From positions 1 through 43,745 of the IMG/VR virus record IMGVR_UViG_3300036814_001086: DNA of 43,745 nucleotides, one strand, 5' to 3'. Of the stretch, positions 16,111 through 41,991 are shown in pieces. Position numbers and translations under genes: made by a program. Under the pieces are notes generated by a model. That model saw only the letters and a program-made list of their open reading frames with translations. It did not search any database and had not been told where the DNA came from. Origin of the DNA: a virus. Numbering within the stretch: the first letter of the stretch is position 1; each line of letters begins with the position of its first letter.

Positions 16111-16968
16111 TCAGAATTCGAATTTTACATTCAGGGCACTTATAAGTCTGGTAAGACCTATTCCACCACCATATCTTGGAAAAAATTTATGACTTAAGAA
16201 TTCTTTCAATTCTTTTTCTACTCGCGCTTCGCCGAATAATTTAAATAATAATTCAGCATATTCTCCATCGGAAATTGTATGAAACTGTTCTCTCATCTCT
16301 TCCGGATCAGCAGACCTTTCAGCGGAACCGATAGTTTCCATGCCACCCATAATTACATCACATTTGTTAGCAAGATCACCTACTTTTTTCATATTCCAAA
16401 AGGGGGAAGTATGATAAGGAAATTGAGTTATAAATCCAACACCGGAAGGATGAGAATCAGATATCATTTGTTCGTGCTCATGATCTAATTCTTCACAATC
16501 AAATTCCTGACACCACATACCATAACTTTTTTCAGGAAATGGTTCGGCAACGCGATCAGGAGGTATGAAACCTAAGTGGTAAATTAAATCTCTTTCCATA
16601 TTAAGTAAGTCCTGAAAGTCACCAGGTGCTTCAAACTCAAACATGGGAAATATAACTTCATGTCTGCCTTCGACAGGATTCTGTTCTTGTCTATAAGATG
16701 TTGAAACACAGAATACACCTTTTAAATCCGGATTATTTAATAGCTCGTATTCCAACCACATTTGACCGGTTTGGGGTAAAGGCCATATGATGTCATTATA
16801 ATTATATGTTGCGACAGTTGTAGGATCTTCGCAAGCAGCTAATATGGATAATCTGTTTTGGGTGTGAACTTCGAGAAAACCACGGGAATGAAAAAAATTA
16901 CGAAGACGGGTAACGGCATTGTCAAAATCTGCGGGTATAATTAAGCTAGTCAGTTTGTTCCTTTCCAA
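16111..16968 (-). CDS. class II aminoacyl-tRNA synthetase core, AsnRS/AspRS-like, no anticodon domain
   Basis: 285 residues from TTG at 16968. Motif 1-like RGFLEVHTQ (29-37); motif 2 SYR93QE95 followed by GRHEVIFPMFEFE; GGME211TIGSAER218 matching the 'E...G..R' of Asp/Asn/Lys synthetases; motif 3 GGGIGLTR274. The whole active site is present but the N-terminal OB-fold anticodon-binding domain (about 100 residues in AsnRS) is absent. The size resembles archaeal AS-AR, an AsnRS-derived asparagine synthetase, so either free asparagine synthesis or tRNA charging is possible. The adjacent GUU tRNA on the same strand favours a link to tRNA-Asn. A better ribosome site (GGAGAG) and ATG (16978) lie 10 nt upstream but one base out of frame across a T7 run. 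Confidence 0.82.
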   Translation of the reverse strand: MERNKLTSLIIPADFDNAVTRLRNFFHSRGFLEVHTQNRLSILAACEDPTTVATYNYNDIIWPLPQTGQMWLEYELLNNPDLKGVFCVSTSYRQEQNPVEGRHEVIFPMFEFEAPGDFQDLLNMERDLIYHLGFIPPDRVAEPFPEKSYGMWCQEFDCEELDHEHEQMISDSHPSGVGFITQFPYHTSPFWNMKKVGDLANKCDVIMGGMETIGSAERSADPEEMREQFHTISDGEYAELLFKLFGEARVEKELKEFLSHKFFPRYGGGIGLTRLISALNVKFEF

Positions 16969-31896: not shown

Positions 31897-33259
31897 TGAA
31901 AATTTTACGAGGAAAGTTGTTCCTTACGTAAAATCTGAATATTTTGAAGATCCTCCGGAAAAAATAGTTTTCAAATTAATTCAAGAATATATTTTAAAGC
32001 ATAATGACCTACCAACCAAACAAAGTTTATTAATAGATTTAGATCAATTAGATGGTATACATGAATCAGAATATACTAAATCTAGTGAAATAATTAATAC
32101 TTTAGAAAAGCCTAGTGATTCTAAAGACATCACACCCTGGCTTTTAGAACAATCAGAAACATTTTGTCAAGATAAAGCAATATATAATGCTGTAGTGAAT
32201 GCTATCGCAATTCTTGAAGGTAATGAAAAGACTCATTTATCTAAAGGAGCAATTCCCACCGTTTTATCAGAAGCTTTAGCTGTTTCTTTTGATCCTCATG
32301 TAGGACACGATTTTATTGACGACGCGGACAAAAGATTTGATTTTTATCATAGAGTAGAAGAAAAACTTGAATTCGATCTCGAGTTGTTTAATAAAATTAC
32401 AAAAGGGGGTTTACCTAAGAAGACTTTAAATATTTGTTTAGCAGGAACTGGAGTTGGTAAATCTTTATTCATGTGTCATCAAGCCGCTAGTTGTCTTTCT
32501 ATTAATAAAAATGTTCTTTACATCACCATGGAGATGGCGGAAGAAAGGATCGCTGAAAGAATTGATGCGAATCTTTTAGATATTCCTATGAGTCAATTAG
32601 AAGAAATTCCTAGAGATATGTATAAAAAGAAAATAGATAAACTCAAAGGAAAAACCAATGGTAAAATAATTATTAAAGAATATCCTACTGCATCTGCCGG
32701 CGCAATGCATTTTAAAAATTTATTAGGTGAATTAAACTTGAAACGTAATTTTGTTCCCGATATAATATTCATAGATTATTTAAACATTTGTACATCTTCT
32801 AGAATAAAGGCAGGAGCCAATGTTAATTCATACACATATATTAAATCTATTGCTGAAGAATTAAGGGGCTTAGCTGTAGAATATAATGTTCCGATTATGT
32901 CTGCAACACAAACAACCAGATCAGGGTTTACAAGTACAGATATTGGTTTAGAAGATACATCTGAGAGTTTTGGTTTACCAGCAACCGCTGACTTTATGTT
33001 CGCACTTATATCTTCTGAAGAAATGGAAGAATTAAATCAAATGCTTGTAAAACAATTGAAAAACAGATATAATGATCCTACATCTTATAGAAAGTTTATT
33101 ATTGGAGTAGATAGAAGTAAAATGAGACTTTATGATGTCGACCAAAAAGCTCAAGAAGATATATCGGACAGCGGACAAGATGATGAACCATTGTTTGATA
33201 TCTCCACCGATAATAGACACAGAAATAAAGCTGATTTCGGGAATTTTCAATATGAATGA
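31850..33259 (+). CDS. 41: replicative DNA helicase (gp41, DnaB family)
   Basis: 469 residues; ribosome site AAGGAG before ATGATG. N-terminal primase-interaction domain, then RecA-like core: NICLAGTGVGKSLFMCHQAA (Walker A, about 195-210), VLYITMEMAEERIAERI, Walker B DIIFIDYLNIC, and SATQTTRSG. T4 gp41 is a hexameric 5'-3' helicase working with gp61 primase and loaded by gp59; neither partner is in this window. Overlaps the metalloprotease-like gene by 8 bp. Confidence 0.95.
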   Translation: MMPRIEQLILSHLIHNENFTRKVVPYVKSEYFEDPPEKIVFKLIQEYILKHNDLPTKQSLLIDLDQLDGIHESEYTKSSEIINTLEKPSDSKDITPWLLEQSETFCQDKAIYNAVVNAIAILEGNEKTHLSKGAIPTVLSEALAVSFDPHVGHDFIDDADKRFDFYHRVEEKLEFDLELFNKITKGGLPKKTLNICLAGTGVGKSLFMCHQAASCLSINKNVLYITMEMAEERIAERIDANLLDIPMSQLEEIPRDMYKKKIDKLKGKTNGKIIIKEYPTASAGAMHFKNLLGELNLKRNFVPDIIFIDYLNICTSSRIKAGANVNSYTYIKSIAEELRGLAVEYNVPIMSATQTTRSGFTSTDIGLEDTSESFGLPATADFMFALISSEEMEELNQMLVKQLKNRYNDPTSYRKFIIGVDRSKMRLYDVDQKAQEDISDSGQDDEPLFDISTDNRHRNKADFGNFQYE

Positions 33260-33887
33260 TGCCGCCACTCCAAATGGATTAGAATTTATTAAAGATTCAT
33301 TAGGATGTATAGATTTAGCTTTTAAAGAATTTGAAAATTCATATAATACAAAAACAAATCGTTATATTAAGCTTTGGCATGAATGTGCTAATAGAACGGA
33401 AGAAATATTAGAAGATGAACTAGGATTTTCTTGCTATGTTAATATACGAAAAGATTTGGGTCATGCTTTATATGAAATGACTTTCGATGGAGCTGCTAAT
33501 GTTCCCGAAGAACATTTTTCAGAATCAGAATTAGAAATAACAATTAATTTATCACCAGAATTATATACACAGCAATTATTTGTGCCAGAATCTGCTTGGG
33601 AAAAATATAGACAACAATTTACTCTCACCTACATTCATGAATTAACACATTCTTTACAATTTGATGATCAACAAACCGCGCAACCCGCATATGATGATTA
33701 TTTTTCAAACCCATTTGAAATAGATGCGTATAGTTCTGAACTCGCCTTTGATATGTATCTCCACGATAAGCCAAAAACAAGTTGTGAAGCTTTTATGAGA
33801 TATTCTACAATAAAAGAACAAAATATTTTTAAACAATTCATACATCTTACCGAAAAGAAATATGAGTATCTTAAAAACAATAAATAA
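33252..33887 (+). CDS. zinc metalloprotease-like protein (HELTH)
   Basis: 211 residues from the ATG at 33252, coupled to gp41; the longer open frame from 33132 lies inside gp41. YIH129ELTH133SLQF is a clear zincin HExxH motif, followed by NPFE156IDAYSSELA, which offers a third ligand Glu, as in minimal gluzincins. The rest is unassigned. It could be a protease acting on host or head proteins; substrate unknown. Its conserved place after gp41 may reflect operon history only. Confidence 0.65.
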   Translation: MNDAATPNGLEFIKDSLGCIDLAFKEFENSYNTKTNRYIKLWHECANRTEEILEDELGFSCYVNIRKDLGHALYEMTFDGAANVPEEHFSESELEITINLSPELYTQQLFVPESAWEKYRQQFTLTYIHELTHSLQFDDQQTAQPAYDDYFSNPFEIDAYSSELAFDMYLHDKPKTSCEAFMRYSTIKEQNIFKQFIHLTEKKYEYLKNNK

Positions 33888-34191: not shown

Positions 34192-35721
34192 ATGAAAACA
34201 TATAAAAATTTTATGACTGAATCTGCCGAACATATAATAGAGCTTCTTCTGGAAAAAGATCTAAGAAATCTTAATGCTCCAGAACTGGCTCCTCTTTTGA
34301 GAATTTTAAAGCAATCTCCTCAGGCGACTATTGATAGAGCATACGAAGCAGTATTTGTTCCCAATATGGAAGCGAGAATCAGTCAATTATTTGATAATAG
34401 GGGCATGACAACAGGTAAAGTAGAAGTGGCTAAAGAAGCTCTGATGTCAAAAATTATTAAAATAAATGCAAAAGTAGAAGAAAAGTTAGATTTTATAAAC
34501 AAATTAATAGGCGGAAAATTAGTTGATGCGAAAGCTATAGTAACTAAAGCTCTAGAAGGCGAAACTAATATTGGTAGCAAAGAATATATTATAGATTCTA
34601 ATCCTATAATTAATAATTCAGCGTTTTATAATTGGTTTGTTAATTGGGAACCCCAAATAGATAAAAGAAATATGGGTGGCGGTGAGATTTTTTTAATTTT
34701 AAACCATCCTAGTGGGCGTAAAGGTAAAGATGGAAAAGGTGATGTTTGGTTTGAAGGTGGAGTCGCCGGCACACCAGGTGTTATCGAATTAAAAAAAGGC
34801 GGTAAAGATTTAGAATCGGATGATCCAGAAGCAAAAAAGGGCAGTGGTGCAGCATTTGGTAAAAAAGATGGATTCAGAGATGGAAAGAAAGTCTTTGATG
34901 ACTTTTGGAAAAAAACAACGCGTTCCAAAAAAGTTCCCGATAATGTTGGATTGGGAGTAGTTGATTCATCTAGGGGCGGTGGAGTTATAAAGAAAGAAAA
35001 ATTTTCAGCGGCAATGAATGAAGCATCAATAAGGTTGCACGAATATGGCGCCTCTGTTACTCAAATTGCGGATATGTGGAAAAAAGTGTGTACTGCATGC
35101 CAAGGAATGGATGGTGGAATTAAATTTGATGATGCTATTTACATAGAAGGTAATATGTGCGTGACAGAGCCTAATACGTTTATGCATATTTGGGTTGCGA
35201 ACGGTATGAATGCATATGCAAAGAAAGAAAATCATGATATTATTTTATATTATAATCCAATAAACTTAAAAGCATATGCATTTAAAACTGGCATAGATTA
35301 TCTTAATGTTGCCGGCAAGGTTAAGATTGATTATGACTGGGCTTTAAATTGGAAAGAAGGCGGTTATGGAAATTTTGTACCAAGATTAAAAGTAGAAAAA
35401 TTTGAACCGGCAAAATTGGTTAAAGGGGAATCAGGATACGGTGATATCCTGGGCGATGTATTCGCGAATGCTTTAACAGCCGATAGGTATGATCCCAAAG
35501 GTGCAGAGAAAAAATATAAGAAAGCAACAGATAAGAATACATCTTTAAAAGATACTATAAATTCCTATTTGAGAGATAAAGCTCCGGAAGACGGCAAACT
35601 GAGAACATTTTCTGATTTTACGAATTGGAAGAGGCTCAAATTACCCAATATTATATCAGGAAAACCAAACGCAGGTAATCGCTCAGAACTATCAGTTGCA
35701 ATTAAGAAGCACTTATCATGA
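34192..35721 (+). CDS. putative head-targeted protein with PD-(D/E)xK-like motif
   Basis: 509 residues. MKTYKNFMTE|S matches the T4 capsid-targeting sequence (MKTYQEFIAE|A in internal proteins, cut by gp21 after a (I/L)xE site). Residues about 162-203 show a nuclease-like arrangement: GGGE165IFLIL, GKGD184VWF and GVIE199LK201, i.e. E...D...ExK. The C-terminal half is unassigned, with two Cys (VCTACQ). If right, a nuclease-type enzyme delivered with the DNA. The motif could be coincidental; I hold the targeting signal as better supported than the nuclease call. Confidence 0.5.
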   Translation: MKTYKNFMTESAEHIIELLLEKDLRNLNAPELAPLLRILKQSPQATIDRAYEAVFVPNMEARISQLFDNRGMTTGKVEVAKEALMSKIIKINAKVEEKLDFINKLIGGKLVDAKAIVTKALEGETNIGSKEYIIDSNPIINNSAFYNWFVNWEPQIDKRNMGGGEIFLILNHPSGRKGKDGKGDVWFEGGVAGTPGVIELKKGGKDLESDDPEAKKGSGAAFGKKDGFRDGKKVFDDFWKKTTRSKKVPDNVGLGVVDSSRGGGVIKKEKFSAAMNEASIRLHEYGASVTQIADMWKKVCTACQGMDGGIKFDDAIYIEGNMCVTEPNTFMHIWVANGMNAYAKKENHDIILYYNPINLKAYAFKTGIDYLNVAGKVKIDYDWALNWKEGGYGNFVPRLKVEKFEPAKLVKGESGYGDILGDVFANALTADRYDPKGAEKKYKKATDKNTSLKDTINSYLRDKAPEDGKLRTFSDFTNWKRLKLPNIISGKPNAGNRSELSVAIKKHLS

Positions 35722-36950
35722 AATCTTATAAACAGTTTCTCGTAGAAGCATCGGGTAAGAATCTTCATATGGAACATCTCGAAGACGAGGTGTTGAATGG
35801 AGGAGTTAATGGTACTAGAGGTGCTATTAATTTTCTGAGATCGCTAAGAGATATGTTAGCAGGAAATAATAAAGAAGCAGTTAATGTTACAGTTAAATGG
35901 GATGGCGCTCCGGCGGCGGTAGCAGGAATTCATCCTAATGGAAAATTTTTCGTTGATTATAAATCAATGAGGAAACCTTGCTTTACACAATCAGATGTAG
36001 ATGAACATTTTGGTGGCGGACCTTTACATCCAAAAATGTCTGCTCTTTTAGAACATTTGCCCAAATTAAATATACCAGGAAATATATTTCACGGAGATGT
36101 TCTTTGGACAGATAATAAAGATAAAAAAATTAAAACAATTGATAAAGAAAAGTATGTTACTTTTACTCCTAACACTATAACATATGCTGTACCATTAAAT
36201 ACTGAATTAGCTAAAAAAATTATTACTGCCAAAGTCGGGATTGTTTTTCATACAACATATAAAACAGCCGGTGCGGATGATTTAAATGATCTTAAAGCAG
36301 AGTTTGGAGCAGATATAAATTTATGGTCTTCTCATAGGGATGTTTGGGCCGTAAATGCAGATTTTACCGATTTAAGTGGATCTGCAACATTTACTCAAGC
36401 AGATACCACCAAAGTAACCGGAATGCTTTCTGAATTAGGAAAAGATTTTAATAAAATTAATGGAAGATTTTTAGATAATATATCAAAAGATAATATTATT
36501 AGAACGCACATTAAAACATTCATGAACACAAAAGTTAGAGAAGGTGAATTTGTTGATAACTATAAAAGATCGGCAAAAGATTGTGTTAAGTGGATTGAGA
36601 ATAAAATGCAGAACGAAGTTGGGAAGTTAAAGTCTGAAAGAGGTAGGCAAAGAAAACAAATGACTGTTGATGGATATATGAAAACTTTAAATGGTTCCAT
36701 GGATCAAATAGAGATCATATTTCGATTAATATCATTAATAAATAATATCAAACTTTTTATAGTTGAAAAATTAGAAGAAGTAAAAGGAATAACAAATACT
36801 TTTATAAAAACCCCTTCAGGGTATAGAGTAACTAAACCAGAAGGTTTTGTTGCTATAGATACTTTTGATAATCAAAAAGGTTTAAAATTAGTTAACAGGA
36901 TGGAATTTAGTAGAATAAATTTCACCGCAGAAAAGGAATGGGACCAATGA
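35718..36950 (+). CDS. ligase-type nucleotidyltransferase with capsid-targeting N-terminus
   Basis: 410 residues. MKSYKQFLVE|A fits the T4 capsid-targeting/gp21 cleavage pattern (L-V-E). Nucleotidyltransferase motifs in ligase order: motif I TVK60WDGAP (KxDG, lysine that takes AMP), a motif III-like NIFHGDVLW (about 113), motif IV-like E375GFVAI and motif V-like K387GLK390LVNR. Similar phage proteins are known as conserved hypotheticals; I infer covalent AMP transfer to RNA or DNA ends. Starts 4 bp inside the previous gene, so both are co-translated. Confidence 0.6.
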   Translation: MKSYKQFLVEASGKNLHMEHLEDEVLNGGVNGTRGAINFLRSLRDMLAGNNKEAVNVTVKWDGAPAAVAGIHPNGKFFVDYKSMRKPCFTQSDVDEHFGGGPLHPKMSALLEHLPKLNIPGNIFHGDVLWTDNKDKKIKTIDKEKYVTFTPNTITYAVPLNTELAKKIITAKVGIVFHTTYKTAGADDLNDLKAEFGADINLWSSHRDVWAVNADFTDLSGSATFTQADTTKVTGMLSELGKDFNKINGRFLDNISKDNIIRTHIKTFMNTKVREGEFVDNYKRSAKDCVKWIENKMQNEVGKLKSERGRQRKQMTVDGYMKTLNGSMDQIEIIFRLISLINNIKLFIVEKLEEVKGITNTFIKTPSGYRVTKPEGFVAIDTFDNQKGLKLVNRMEFSRINFTAEKEWDQ

Positions 36951-37141
36951 GAACTTATAAGGAATTTTCATTTAACATTGCAGAAGATGGACTAAATAAT
37001 AGTAGAGATGGAAAGAAAGTCATGCAAGCTATAGCAAAAAAGAAACTGTGGGTTGACAGAGACTCTTTTGGTGATTCCATTATTGGTACTGGACCAGACA
37101 AAAGAAAACTAAGAACAGCTTTAATAGATTACAGAGATTAG
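36947..37141 (+). CDS. small protein with capsid-targeting-like N-terminus (64 aa)
   Basis: From the ATG at 36947 (ATGA overlap) the protein begins MRTYKEFSFNIAE|DG, again MxTYKxF with an I-A-E site. The rest is basic (KKVMQAIAKKKLWVDRDSFG), like the small basic internal proteins of T4. Third consecutive gene with this signature. Confidence 0.55.
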   Translation: MRTYKEFSFNIAEDGLNNSRDGKKVMQAIAKKKLWVDRDSFGDSIIGTGPDKRKLRTALIDYRD

Positions 37142-37442: not shown

Positions 37443-37691
37443 ATGGCTGATAAACATAATTATTTCGGAGAGAGCCCTTTCTCAAACGATGATTATACCG
37501 ATCTAGCAAATTCTGTAAAAAGAATTGTAGATAAAAAGTCTAAAGGGTTTAAATATACTAAGGAACAAATTCGGGATATGTCAGAACAGAACGCAAATAA
37601 ATCTGTTCAAAATACCTACATGTCAATGGTTCAAAAAGAAGCGGAACACAAAATTGTAAGACCCGGAGAAGAGGATAAAGAGGATAAATGA
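37443..37691 (+). CDS. small protein (82 aa), unknown
   Basis: Strong ribosome site AGGAGAAG. MADKHNYFGESPFSNDDYTD then YTKEQIRDMSEQNANKSVQN; basic/acidic tail. No family recognised. Coupled by ATGA to the adenylyltransferase-like gene. Confidence 0.55.
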   Translation: MADKHNYFGESPFSNDDYTDLANSVKRIVDKKSKGFKYTKEQIRDMSEQNANKSVQNTYMSMVQKEAEHKIVRPGEEDKEDK

Positions 37692-39082
37692 CAACATTCA
37701 TCGAATTACGTGAAGGAACGTTAAAAACTGCTATATTTACATTTGGACGGTTTAATCCGCCCACAACCGGGCATGAGATTTTAGTTAATAAAATTGTAAC
37801 AGCGGCTTCTCGAAGTCGGGCCGATGCATTTGTTTTTTTAAGTTCCTCACAAGATTCGAAAAAAAATCCATTAGACTATAAAAATAAAGTCAAATGGATG
37901 AAGAAAATGTTTAAGCCAAGAGGCCAAAATATTTTTAAATATTCCAAGGAGCAGCCTGGAGATGTTTTGAAAGTTGCTTCTTTATTGCACGATGAAGGAT
38001 ATAAACAAATCATTATGGTTGTTGGAAGTGATAGAATAAATGACTTTAAAAAACTCTTGACTCAATATAACGGCGTTAAAGATAAGCCGCATGGTTTTTA
38101 TGATTTTAAAAAAATAGATATAGAAAGTGCAGGAGAAAGAGATCCTGATGCTGATGATGCGACTGGTATGTCTGCATCTAAATTAAGATCTCTCGCTATA
38201 GACGGCGATTTCGAAGCGTTTAAAACGGGTTTACCCGATACTTTAAGTGAAAGAGACAGTAGAAGTTTATATCAATTATTAAGAAAACAAATGAAACTCA
38301 GTGTAATGGAAAAACAAATAAAAGAAAAACTTAGTACTACGGAAGTGCTTAATACGAGCATAAAACGGCCGCAGAGTTTACCACCAAGAAAAAACAAGGC
38401 CACAACCCCAAAACAACAAAAAAAGGCCGCGGATAGTTTTATTTCTGCTAATATGCCCAAAATGCGTCCAGTGAAGTATCCACCCATGCCCGATGATGAT
38501 GTTAAAGAGAGTTTATGGATGGAACATGTTGAATTTGAAGGAGAGACATTTTGTGTAGATAAGAGAGCCGCTACAATATTTAACTATATAAAATCTTTAC
38601 CATATAATTATCAAGAAATATCCTATATTAAAGGATGTTTAAAAGAATGTCAAGAATTTTTTGGAAGGTATGAATTAATAACGGAAAAAGTAAAACTTTG
38701 GGAACTTTCAGCATTAAGAGGACTTATTAAAAAGACATCTGATTATATAACAATATTAGATGAAGGGTCCGGGATGGTTGATTTTAATAAGACAGATTTT
38801 ACATATTTACAAGAAATGGTAGATATTCTTCCTGTAGATGAAGTTGACTTTAAAGATCCAGTTAGTAATAAATTGCAAAAACTTCTCGGTTTAAAAGAAT
38901 GGAATAAGAATCGAACTTCCGAAGGTAGACAGTTAGAATTAGGAACAGATAAATATAGACAATATATTGTGAATTTGACTCCCGAAGAGGAGTTTAAACT
39001 CGAACAAGATAAAAAAAGATTAAATCAAACCGAAAGACATAATAAAATTCTTTCGAAAATAATTGCAAGTAGGAGCAACTGA
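37688..39082 (+). CDS. NMN-adenylyltransferase-like protein with C-terminal extension
   Basis: 464 residues. The HxGH-superfamily motif is FTFG20RFNPPTTGH29EILV, followed by AFVFLSSSQDSKKNPL and MVVGSDRINDFKKLL; the second signature is ATGMSASKLRSLA (ISxSxxR-like). Such enzymes join AMP to NMN or nicotinate mononucleotide, or CMP to phospho-alcohols. Residues about 205-464 are an unassigned extension. The start MTTFIELREG resembles a capsid-targeting sequence with an L-R-E site. T4-like phages such as KVP40 encode NAD-salvage enzymes; here the role may be NAD supply or counter-defence. Confidence 0.7.
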   Translation: MTTFIELREGTLKTAIFTFGRFNPPTTGHEILVNKIVTAASRSRADAFVFLSSSQDSKKNPLDYKNKVKWMKKMFKPRGQNIFKYSKEQPGDVLKVASLLHDEGYKQIIMVVGSDRINDFKKLLTQYNGVKDKPHGFYDFKKIDIESAGERDPDADDATGMSASKLRSLAIDGDFEAFKTGLPDTLSERDSRSLYQLLRKQMKLSVMEKQIKEKLSTTEVLNTSIKRPQSLPPRKNKATTPKQQKKAADSFISANMPKMRPVKYPPMPDDDVKESLWMEHVEFEGETFCVDKRAATIFNYIKSLPYNYQEISYIKGCLKECQEFFGRYELITEKVKLWELSALRGLIKKTSDYITILDEGSGMVDFNKTDFTYLQEMVDILPVDEVDFKDPVSNKLQKLLGLKEWNKNRTSEGRQLELGTDKYRQYIVNLTPEEEFKLEQDKKRLNQTERHNKILSKIIASRSN

Positions 39083-41991
39083 TGGACTGGTCAAAATATT
39101 ATCCCGCAAAATGGAGCGCGGTAACCGCAGAAGATGTTAGAATGATCAGAGAGAAAAAACTCGCTCCTGTAGACAAAGATGCAGTTAAACAAGATTGGAA
39201 AGATCGTTCAGATGATGATCATGTTGATATAGACGCTGATGGAGATGAAGACAATTCTGATAAGTTTTTACATAAGAAAAGAAAAGCAATTACTAAGGCT
39301 GTAGATGCAGATGAAGCAATGGATCCAGCTATAGCACGAGTAAAAGCAGCCGCGGCAGCAAAGAAAAAACAACTTCAAACTCAGCAAGGCGGAGTAAGGA
39401 AATTTTCTATTGCTAGCAATCCTGCAGCACACGACACGGCGATGTCCCAGATGTCAAAGAAGCAGAATGATGTCAACGAAGTTTCGAAAGAACTGTTACA
39501 ACGCGCAAGAAACACAGCCTATAATAAAGCAGCAGACGCAAGAGACGCACAAAAGAAGAGGGTTGTCGACAACCCCACACCAAGGAAAAGAGAAGGTGAG
39601 TTGGCAGCAAAGAGAGAGAAACAAGGCAATAAATTCGCCGCGGCATTTCAGGCATCGGAAGATTATCAAGATGATGTCAAGGCTGCCTGGTATAAAGGAG
39701 ATGATGCTTATGCAGCTCACAAAGACGCAAATCCTCAAATGCACAAAAAAGCACCTGTAAAGAAAAAAGTTTCATTGCCGGCTCCAAAAAGCGACCAAGA
39801 GAGGAGAAAGGACGACTGGTACGCTAAAAAAGAAAGTTGGATGCCAGTTGATGAAAAAAGACTGAAGCAGAAAAAAAGCGAGAATAAAAAAGATTACAGG
39901 GATGACAATTTGAAGAAGAAGATTAAAGGAATAGAAGAGCCAGATTTTTCCAAGAAACAAGATACAGTAACAAATATGGAATGGGCTAAAAGGGTAATTA
40001 ATAATTATCATGATATTGAAGAACATTGTGGGTGGTGTGATCTAGAAATGGAAATAGAATCAAAAGAATTACCTACATCAAAAGGAATAGCTAAACAAAT
40101 TAAAGAATTAGCCAAAGCCGTTAGAGGAAAAGATAGACTCTCAATCGAAGGAGCTGCTTCGTTAGTATCTAAAAAAGATTATGATAAATTAGCACCTTAT
40201 CTAGATAAGATGTCAGAAGAAGCACGACAAAGTGTTTTGATGGTATTAATGACCGATCAAAAAGTTGCTAATTCGGTTATGAAAAAAATGAAAACAGAGC
40301 AATATGATGAATGCGAAATTCCTTCTCATAAATTTATTCTTGAAGGGATGTATAAAAAATATCATGAATTAACATGGGGAGAAATTGGCGAGAGGTTAAT
40401 TAAAAATACAGAGCGCAGATTAGTTTCTCTTGCTTATGCTACTAAAATGGGAACAATTGATGCTCCTTCACCCGAAGTTCAAAAATTAGCAGATGAATGT
40501 GAATTAGAAGATTTAGAAAAAGCTTGCGGTCAAATGATTACGGATGATTCAGATATAACCGAAAGAGTTGTTGACGAAGTCATCGAAATGTATAATTCTC
40601 TTAATGAAGATGAACAAACTTCATTCGCGTCTTTTGTAAATCAATTAGAAGATGAGGAAGTGTTAGCAGAATTACCGAACTTCATGACGGCAGCTGGCAG
40701 AACACAAAACAAAAAAGATAAACTGGTACGTAAAAACGATGCAATGCAGACACATCAGGATAATTTAGATGATATTGAGTCAGAGAAAGAAAGATCAGTA
40801 GAACTGAAAGCTAAACAAAAACCGGGCCTATTGAAAAAAATTGGATCCGCTGTAAAGAGGGGCGTAAAGGATCTCGCGCGCGGGCCCTCACAAGCAGTCA
40901 AAACTGCCGGAGTTCGGACTGTGAGATCAGATGCAGATCGAATTTCAGATAAAGCCGTAAAAGATCAAAAAGCTTCAGCTGCCGCTCAAACTCAAAAGAC
41001 TGCCGGAGTTCAAACTAAAGCCGATCAACAACGAGGTGCCACTGCATCAACCGCAGATAAAGCCCAACAGAAAAGAATGGATGCGGAAGGCAAAGAAAGA
41101 GCCAGAAAGAAACTGGCTCAGGCAAGGTTATCAGATGATCCTTCCATGAAAAAAGCTGTGGCGACCTCTACAAAAGGAAAAGTAATGGGTGCTGTTGGTT
41201 CAGCTCTCGGTGCCATGGCCGGTAGTTATGAACCAGTCGGTCAAATGATTGAAGGAGACGAAGAACATACCACTGAAAGAATTGATGCCAGACGTAGAAT
41301 TTTTAAAGAAAAAATTAAAAAATTAGCTTATGAAAAAGCCAAAGAAATTCTAGGTAAGAGGCAACCAGTAGAACCGATAATAACTAAAGAAACTAATAAG
41401 AATGATAAGGATGATGATGGCGAAGGATTAGATGCTGTTCAACCGGATGCTGTTCAAAAGAAGTTTAAAAATCGCAAAGATAAAGATATTGATAATGATG
41501 GTGATGCAGATGATTCTGATAAATTTTTACATAAAAAAAGGAAAGCAGTTTCTAAAGCAATGAAGAAAGAAGATGATGAAGATGAATCCAAAGTAAAAGA
41601 AAATGGTAAAATTAATAATAAAATAAAAATGGAACCAGAACAGGAGAAAATGAAAGAAAGTACAGGAGTAGCATTTGTTCGAAAATTTAAGAACAAAATA
41701 TCTGAAACAAATGAAGATACTTCGTTACAAGATCAAGTTTTAGAATTGTTCCGAAGTTCTTATGCTAGTATTGATGGTGAACCAGTTGGCGCTGAATTTG
41801 CTGTTTCCGATGAACCCGCCTCAGCTTCAACTATTGCCAGAACATTAAGATGTAGCCCAGCAAAAGTACAAAAATTGTTGGACGATATGGCAGAAGCAGG
41901 AACAATTACTAGGGATAAAGCAGGGCATTTTACATATGCTTCACCCAAACCAGCAGAGCCTATGGGAACTAAGGAAAATTCGGCTGCATAA
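39082..41991 (+). CDS. large repeat-containing virion-type protein with Ca-binding motifs
   Basis: 969 residues. Two calcium-loop motifs, HVDIDADGDEDNSDKFLHKK (48-67) and DIDNDGDADDSDKFLHKKRK (about 798-817), are near-identical and each followed by a basic helix KRKA(I/V). The segment SKELLQRARNTAYNKAADAR with KREKQGNKFAAAF matches the repeat of the 7916 protein. Ala/Lys/Gln-rich linkers (about 620-700) are disordered. The C-terminal 70 residues (SASTIARTLRCSPAKVQKLL) look like a winged helix. Probably a head/core or internal protein; order on the map (after capsid-targeted genes) agrees. Confidence 0.65.
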   Translation: MDWSKYYPAKWSAVTAEDVRMIREKKLAPVDKDAVKQDWKDRSDDDHVDIDADGDEDNSDKFLHKKRKAITKAVDADEAMDPAIARVKAAAAAKKKQLQTQQGGVRKFSIASNPAAHDTAMSQMSKKQNDVNEVSKELLQRARNTAYNKAADARDAQKKRVVDNPTPRKREGELAAKREKQGNKFAAAFQASEDYQDDVKAAWYKGDDAYAAHKDANPQMHKKAPVKKKVSLPAPKSDQERRKDDWYAKKESWMPVDEKRLKQKKSENKKDYRDDNLKKKIKGIEEPDFSKKQDTVTNMEWAKRVINNYHDIEEHCGWCDLEMEIESKELPTSKGIAKQIKELAKAVRGKDRLSIEGAASLVSKKDYDKLAPYLDKMSEEARQSVLMVLMTDQKVANSVMKKMKTEQYDECEIPSHKFILEGMYKKYHELTWGEIGERLIKNTERRLVSLAYATKMGTIDAPSPEVQKLADECELEDLEKACGQMITDDSDITERVVDEVIEMYNSLNEDEQTSFASFVNQLEDEEVLAELPNFMTAAGRTQNKKDKLVRKNDAMQTHQDNLDDIESEKERSVELKAKQKPGLLKKIGSAVKRGVKDLARGPSQAVKTAGVRTVRSDADRISDKAVKDQKASAAAQTQKTAGVQTKADQQRGATASTADKAQQKRMDAEGKERARKKLAQARLSDDPSMKKAVATSTKGKVMGAVGSALGAMAGSYEPVGQMIEGDEEHTTERIDARRRIFKEKIKKLAYEKAKEILGKRQPVEPIITKETNKNDKDDDGEGLDAVQPDAVQKKFKNRKDKDIDNDGDADDSDKFLHKKRKAVSKAMKKEDDEDESKVKENGKINNKIKMEPEQEKMKESTGVAFVRKFKNKISETNEDTSLQDQVLELFRSSYASIDGEPVGAEFAVSDEPASASTIARTLRCSPAKVQKLLDDMAEAGTITRDKAGHFTYASPKPAEPMGTKENSAA

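Follow-up and report, generated by a model that had tools for sequence, protein, structure and literature searches.

The window analyzed here is a 43,745-nt stretch of viral DNA, the DNA polymerase of which is ~49% identical to the polymerases of cyanophages. Downstream of the polB-uvsX-gp41 replication cluster, an open reading frame (ORF) on the plus strand (positions 35718 to 36950) encodes a 410-aa protein that is a full-length member of Pfam family PF19782 (DUF6267; E = 3.3e-87; 293.7 bits against a gathering cut-off of 27, with positions 1 to 376 of the 376-position profile covered) and of PHROG 455, annotated as 'unknown function' (E = 6.5e-77, full length). An earlier note, made from the sequence alone, had placed this protein in an unassigned family, and indeed neither DUF6267 nor PHROG 455 carries a function; we propose one here. 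The gene begins with a putative capsid-targeting leader, MKSYKQFLVE (35718 to 35747), and its start shares the sequence ATGA with the end of the upstream gene (34192 to 35721, plus strand), which encodes a hypervariable 509-aa partner with a leader of its own, MKTYKNFMTE, and a PD-(D/E)XK-like pattern. At the other end, the DUF6267 stop overlaps, again in ATGA, with a small plus-strand ORF (67 aa as listed from 36938, with a likely start at 36947; 36947 to 37141). Further downstream lies a gene (37688 to 39082, plus strand) identified by profile searches as a nucleotidylyltransferase of the HIGH superfamily ('cytidyltransferase'; motif GRFNPPTTGH), which has homologues among virion proteins (PMC3037559, PMC10665884).

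With tblastn, some 400-470 phage records proved to contain DUF6267 relatives; almost all are from T4-like cyanophages, joined by pelagiphage HTVC008M, Methylophilales phage Melnitz, Stenotrophomonas phage DLP6, and a few more. DUF6267 was found in 369 Synechococcus-phage records versus 376 for the polymerase, and in 61 versus 61 'Cyanophage' records; the assignment developed below provides a testable enzyme identity for a gene that almost every sequenced T4-like phage of marine cyanobacteria carries. One family member, S-PM2_138 (T4-GC 71), is listed in a review as a conserved unknown (PMC2984593). In the literature searched, no mention of DUF6267 by name was found, and the PF19782 and PHROG 455 numbers lead solely to this review, via S-PM2_138. 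In the first S-PM2 record (L247, AJ630128), DUF6267 is split over two frames (p138/p139), and in the later one (L381, LN828717), there is a single 591-aa DUF6267-cytidyltransferase fusion.

The earlier note had described KWDGAP, FHGDVLW, EGFVAI, and KGLKLV as a complete set of ligase-type nucleotidyltransferase motifs, and all four are present in the 410-aa ORF in the claimed order. In the alignments, motif I (K60-W-D-G-A-P, residues 60 to 65; 35895 to 35912), with the predicted nucleotidyl-lysine K60, is followed on the same plus strand by a motif III-like segment (F-H-G126-D127-V-L-W, residues 124 to 130; 36087 to 36107), an invariant motif IIIa-like block (F149-x-P-N-T-I-x-Y156; 36162 to 36185), motif IV (E375-G-F-V-A-I, residues 375 to 380; 36840 to 36857), which reads EGYVAV in T4 Rnl1, and motif V (K387-G-L-K390-L-V, residues 387 to 392; 36876 to 36893). 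The spacing of the motifs is ligase-like, with K390 at +15 from motif IV, the same as K242 of Rnl1. When KEDGS...EGYVAVMKDGSHFKIK of T4 Rnl1 is set against EGYVAVDKSGKAVKLV of HTVC008M, the EGYVAV...K segments are strikingly alike. Nevertheless, 'complete' was an overstatement. Known ligases have Glu in motif III and usually K-x-K in motif V, whereas the window protein has Asp in the former and a single Lys in the latter, and because only about 20 residues are left beyond motif V, the OB domain and motif VI are absent. Thus, with respect to the KxDG superfamily, motifs III, IV, and V occur in order, with substitutions (Glu to Asp in III and one Lys in V).

These residues are strongly conserved, well beyond what chance would give. 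K60, D62, G63, G126, D127, E375, G376, K390, and R394 are invariant in the 48-row alignment, as are, in 10- and 48-sequence alignments, P65, K82, P151-T153, and F397; among the distinct homologues, KxDGxP and [QH][GA]D are found in 181 of 181, EG[FYW]V in 180 of 181, and K[LI]V[DN]R in 176 of 181. In addition, H17, H20, and D23 are invariant within an H17-x-E-H20-x-E-D23 segment that runs into the first helix (35766 to 35786, plus strand). Between IIIa and IV, alignments and the model place a helical stretch (residues 227 to 353; 36396 to 36776, plus strand), most of which is missing from cyanophage members of ~300 aa. These members nevertheless retain KxDG, the Asp of motif III (which reads Q-A-D in S-RIM8), EG, and K390. 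Thus, the core is about as large as the nucleotidyltransferase domain of RNA ligases, and the helices represent an insertion.

An AlphaFold2 model built from the 48-sequence alignment (mean pLDDT 82, with 58-78 around motifs IV-V; pTM 0.78) was compared with known structures by running VIA-align 2 on Foldseek's top 1000 PDB matches. Among the best 50 matches listed, 49 are ligase-superfamily chains, the remaining one being an Hsp70 helical piece. The best match is the Naegleria RNA ligase (Z 8.5, 3.6 Å, 179 residues), followed by REL1 (Z 7.4), Trl1 (7.2), T4 Rnl2 (7.1), T4 Rnl1 (6.7), and DNA ligases (about 6). The structural comparison with Rnl1, Rnl2, and DNA ligases proposed in the earlier note therefore came out in favor of its ligase-type reading, which draws support from both the invariant motifs and the predicted fold. 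Foldseek alone, run against the PDB with the nucleotidyltransferase model, yielded nothing significant (best ligase E 0.1). Sequence methods established no link either: the Pfam ligase profiles matched none of the 48 DUF6267 members, phmmer and hmmsearch against PDB sequences recovered no ligase, the window protein matched neither the Rnl1 profile (PF09511, a search with which was also empty for record G000), the Rnl2-type RNA_ligase profile (PF09414), nor that of ATP-dependent DNA ligases (PF01068), and hhalign gave DUF6267 probabilities of 0.3% with Rnl1 and 0.2% with Rnl2. However, the Rnl1-Rnl2 control, a pair of true homologues, scored only 14% in hhalign, so these failed links carry little weight; the ligase assignment rests on the invariant motifs plus the predicted fold rather than on sequence statistics. 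Weak Pfam matches to Mlp lipoprotein, SWI2_SNF2, and similar families were dismissed as helix or composition effects. Taken together, the motifs and the model make it very probable that DUF6267 is a ligase-type nucleotidyltransferase, and it is predicted to constitute a new family within the KxDG superfamily of covalent nucleotidyltransferases (ligases and capping enzymes).

Within this superfamily, the predicted protein combines features of several groups. It shares with T4 Rnl1 and fungal Trl1 the KxDG signature, an EGYVA-type motif IV, the Lys at +15, the nucleotidyltransferase fold (Z 6.7-7.2), and the lack of an OB domain, but differs in that a helical module inserted ahead of motif IV takes the place of a C-terminal domain, motif V has a single Lys, motif III has Asp, and no sequence profile matches; ending ~20 residues past motif V, it has no equivalent of the C-terminal tRNA-specificity domain of Rnl1. 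Its nucleotidyltransferase core is structurally closest to the Rnl2/REL and Naegleria (Rnl5-like) RNA ligases (Z 7.1-8.5), although it possesses neither the C-terminal domain of Rnl2 nor an N-terminal OB module, and again matches no profile. With ATP-dependent DNA ligases, such as T4 gp30, of which it might be a functional counterpart, it has in common the motif order and the core (Z about 6), but not the OB domain with motif VI, for which there is no room beyond motif V, the insert being helical in the model.

The start of the window protein, MKSYKQFLVE-AS, closely parallels that of T4 IPIII, MKTYQEFIAEAS (MKTYQEFIAE-AS), and has the layout of a T4 capsid-targeting sequence (CTS), namely, 10 residues with aromatic residues at positions 4 and 7, an aliphatic one at 8, and Glu at 10, after which the prohead protease is predicted to cut. 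The first 10 residues of IPIII are enough for head targeting, and in the T4 CTS, residues 4 and 7 contribute to targeting and residues 8 and 10 to processing (PMC9026906). The head-targeting start suggested in the earlier note thus has the exact T4-type layout, and the pattern M..[FYLI]..[FYHVIL][LIMV].E recurs, with varying residues, in 30 of the 39 non-redundant DUF6267 members. The same kind of leader is present on proteins known from virions: the S-SM1 cytidyltransferase (SSM1_190; T4-GC190), which adjoins DUF6267, starts with MKKFSAFLNE-A and was detected in virions (PMC3037559), as was that of S-CREM2 (PMC10665884, Table 3), which starts with MKNFSSFLTE-A. The DUF6267 protein of S-CREM2 itself is leaderless, and the table of 52 virion proteins lists none at its position (PMC10665884). 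Most cyanophage members are likewise leaderless (MSKNT/MAKNT starts), and because of these members and the one missing from the virion list, packaging does not appear to be ancestral to the whole family; packaging in all members was rejected, given that in 57 of the 166 members that contain the HxEHxED segment, fewer than eight residues precede it. Packaging is, then, likely a lineage trait, and the exact leader match together with the virion-proven neighbors makes packaging of DUF6267 in this phage, as predicted in the earlier note, a distinctly probable outcome. Like the T4 internal proteins IPI-III and Alt, the module would combine a 10-residue leader, laid out as in IPIII and predicted to be cut after Glu10, with fast-changing cargo, here in the partner gene. 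The T4 cargo includes a small inhibitor (IPI) and an ADP-ribosyltransferase (Alt), whereas here it would consist of an enzyme resembling ligases and a protein resembling restriction enzymes.

In 205 of 222 loci, an ORF of >150 aa ends close to the 5' side of DUF6267, and in 153 of these 205, it overlaps DUF6267, a count that is based on the first in-frame start and may therefore be too high. The encoded proteins, which often bear a leader, fall into 24 BLAST-unrelated groups, and identity to the window's partner can drop to 22-28% in loci where DUF6267 is 91-97% identical and the helicase and cytidyltransferase are 69-97% identical. Consistent with such a variable, head-targeted slot, the T4 internal proteins vary greatly but share a conserved targeting sequence, and restriction systems have shaped them in an arms race (PMC3012670). 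The partner group of the window conserves G162-x-G-E165, G183-D184, and E199-x-K201, a PD-(D/E)XK nuclease pattern in which the acidic E165 is followed by D184, E199, and K201, matching D...(E/S)xK. In relaxed form, the latter occurs in 61 of the 83 non-redundant proteins encoded upstream; among other ORFs, 68 of 352 contain it (Fisher p = 1.5e-20), and after shuffling of the upstream sequences, about 26 of 83 do. Furthermore, slot homologues in DLP6 and loci L125, L185, L195, and L227 match the PADLOC REase_II (type II restriction-enzyme) profile (1e-10 to 1e-20), those of L185 and L227 starting with a leader, and leaders on the partner and on DUF6267 co-occur (p = 0.004, with related loci counted as independent). 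The window's own partner had no counterpart in the named phages searched. It matched no nuclease or REase_II profile, and the model built for it (pLDDT 78) gave no significant fold match, with HinP1I alone aligning in the motif region (Z 2.7, rmsd 5.5, 145 residues); for these reasons, it is at most likely to be a nuclease. Slot homologues that overlap DUF6267 or lie directly 5' of it include those at L185:4042-4998, L227:4005-4961, and L083:7079-7993. Some slots are occupied by other proteins, among them an HD hydrolase, an HAD phosphatase that bears a leader (L204), and a P-loop kinase (L229).

These observations suggest the following scenario. The DUF6267 protein would be made with a T4-type leader and packed into the prohead, where the leader would be removed by a cut after Glu10; injection would then take place together with the DNA and with the leader-bearing, hypervariable, restriction-enzyme-like partner. 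In the predicted chemistry, Lys60 would attack the alpha-phosphate of ATP to form Lys60-AMP, with D127 and E375 helping to position metal and nucleotide and K390 touching the phosphates; the AMP would then be handed to a 5'-phosphate end, which would be sealed. The enzyme would thereby most likely serve to seal broken strands of phage nucleic acid, starting in the first minutes of an infection, and the pairing of a constant nucleotidyltransferase with a variable restriction-like protein suggests that general repair is combined with an attack or defense function of shifting specificity. As a whole, we consider this explanation reasonably probable; sealing of nucleic-acid ends, rather than some other AMP transfer, is a candidate activity that we favor with slightly more confidence, and the preference for DNA over RNA as the candidate substrate is slight. 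Among the cargoes packaged by T4-like phages, a ligase-like enzyme tied by gene overlap to a fast-changing restriction-enzyme-like partner would be of a new type.

Alternatively, DUF6267 might be the missing replication and repair DNA ligase of T4-like marine phages, doing the work of T4 gp30 in the sealing of Okazaki and repair nicks, with packaging being secondary and lineage-specific. Its location next to the replication cluster, its near-universality, and conservation matching that of the gp41 helicase (97/97% and 93/89%) all fit this possibility. In a survey of 22 DUF6267 records (some of them fragments), for which T4 served as a control positive for PF01068, PF09414, and PF09511, PF01068 was found in four (DLP6, S-CRM01, G006, and G007) and absent from 18, the NAD-ligase PF01653 was found in none, PF09414 in one, and PF09511 in two. 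Homologues of g30 were not found in cyanomyoviruses, for which undetected distant homologues were considered one option and true absence more probable (PMC2984593). Given that most of the searched DUF6267 phages have no recognizable DNA or RNA ligase, DUF6267 is a natural and concrete candidate for the DNA ligase that cyanomyoviruses are reported to lack, even though four phages have both proteins, which led us to reject strict replacement of gp30. However, DNA ligases clamp DNA with the OB domain that DUF6267 lacks, and the top structural matches are RNA ligases. Moreover, the host ligase may suffice (PMC2984593), and we regard this alternative as possible but doubtful. Still more tentative is a combined version, in which the hypervariable restriction-type nuclease of a packaged and injected two-enzyme module would attack host or rival DNA, the constant ligase of the new family would protect the incoming genome, and the same ligase would be the missing replicative enzyme in leaderless cyanophages.

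A tRNA or RNA repair ligase that is delivered at infection and that, like T4 Pnkp and Rnl1, would reverse the damage done by anticodon nucleases of the host appears unlikely: the closest predicted folds are indeed RNA ligases, the EGYVA...K segment is Rnl1-like, and the phosphatase and kinase of the L204 and L229 slots belong to types known in end-healing enzymes, but such neighbors are rare next to the usual restriction-enzyme-like ones, the tRNA domain of Rnl1 is absent, no tRNA-specific feature was found in DUF6267, and PrrC-type pressure is not documented here for the hosts concerned. Somewhat less probable again is a non-sealing covalent nucleotidyltransferase, with RNA capping or the adenylation of a protein or small molecule as its activity; the departures in motifs III and V, the missing OB domain, the unusual insert, and the invariant HxEHxED segment would suit such an enzyme, but to our knowledge, the characterized KxDG-superfamily enzymes all act on nucleic-acid ends. 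The HIGH-family nucleotidylyltransferase, which is encoded 3' of DUF6267 in 125 of the 143 loci with enough sequence and fused to it in S-PM2, may act in the same pathway. An NAD+-linked pair, in which DUF6267 would use NAD+ and release NMN, and this neighbor would remake NAD+ from NMN and ATP, is nevertheless highly improbable because the weak NMNAT profile matches fall far under the cut-off and a LigA Ia-type signature was not recognized. Least credible is a degenerate ligase fold serving as an inert internal head protein, for which the leader and the motif III and V departures might speak, given that the catalytic motifs are invariant across ~30-50% identity and in leaderless members.

Several other ORFs of the window deserve mention next to the sealing enzyme proposed here. 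The likely start of the small ORF at 36947 to 37141, MRTYKEFSFNIAE, appears leader-like, and the start of the HIGH-superfamily protein, MTTFIELRE-G, also resembles a head-targeting leader, its C-terminal part being long and variable. The ORF at 33132 to 33887, with a listed start within the helicase gene, contains an HExxH motif (YIHELTHSLQ) and is a possible zinc metallopeptidase. The rest of the window being plus-strand, the ORF at 16111 to 16968 lies on the minus strand and, judged by eye, is similar to class II aminoacyl-tRNA synthetases or to asparagine synthetase A. Finally, positions 39082 to 41991 encode a lysine-rich, low-complexity ORF of 969 aa with a repeated 'DxDGDxDxSDKFLHKKRKA' and a winged-helix-like C-terminal part.
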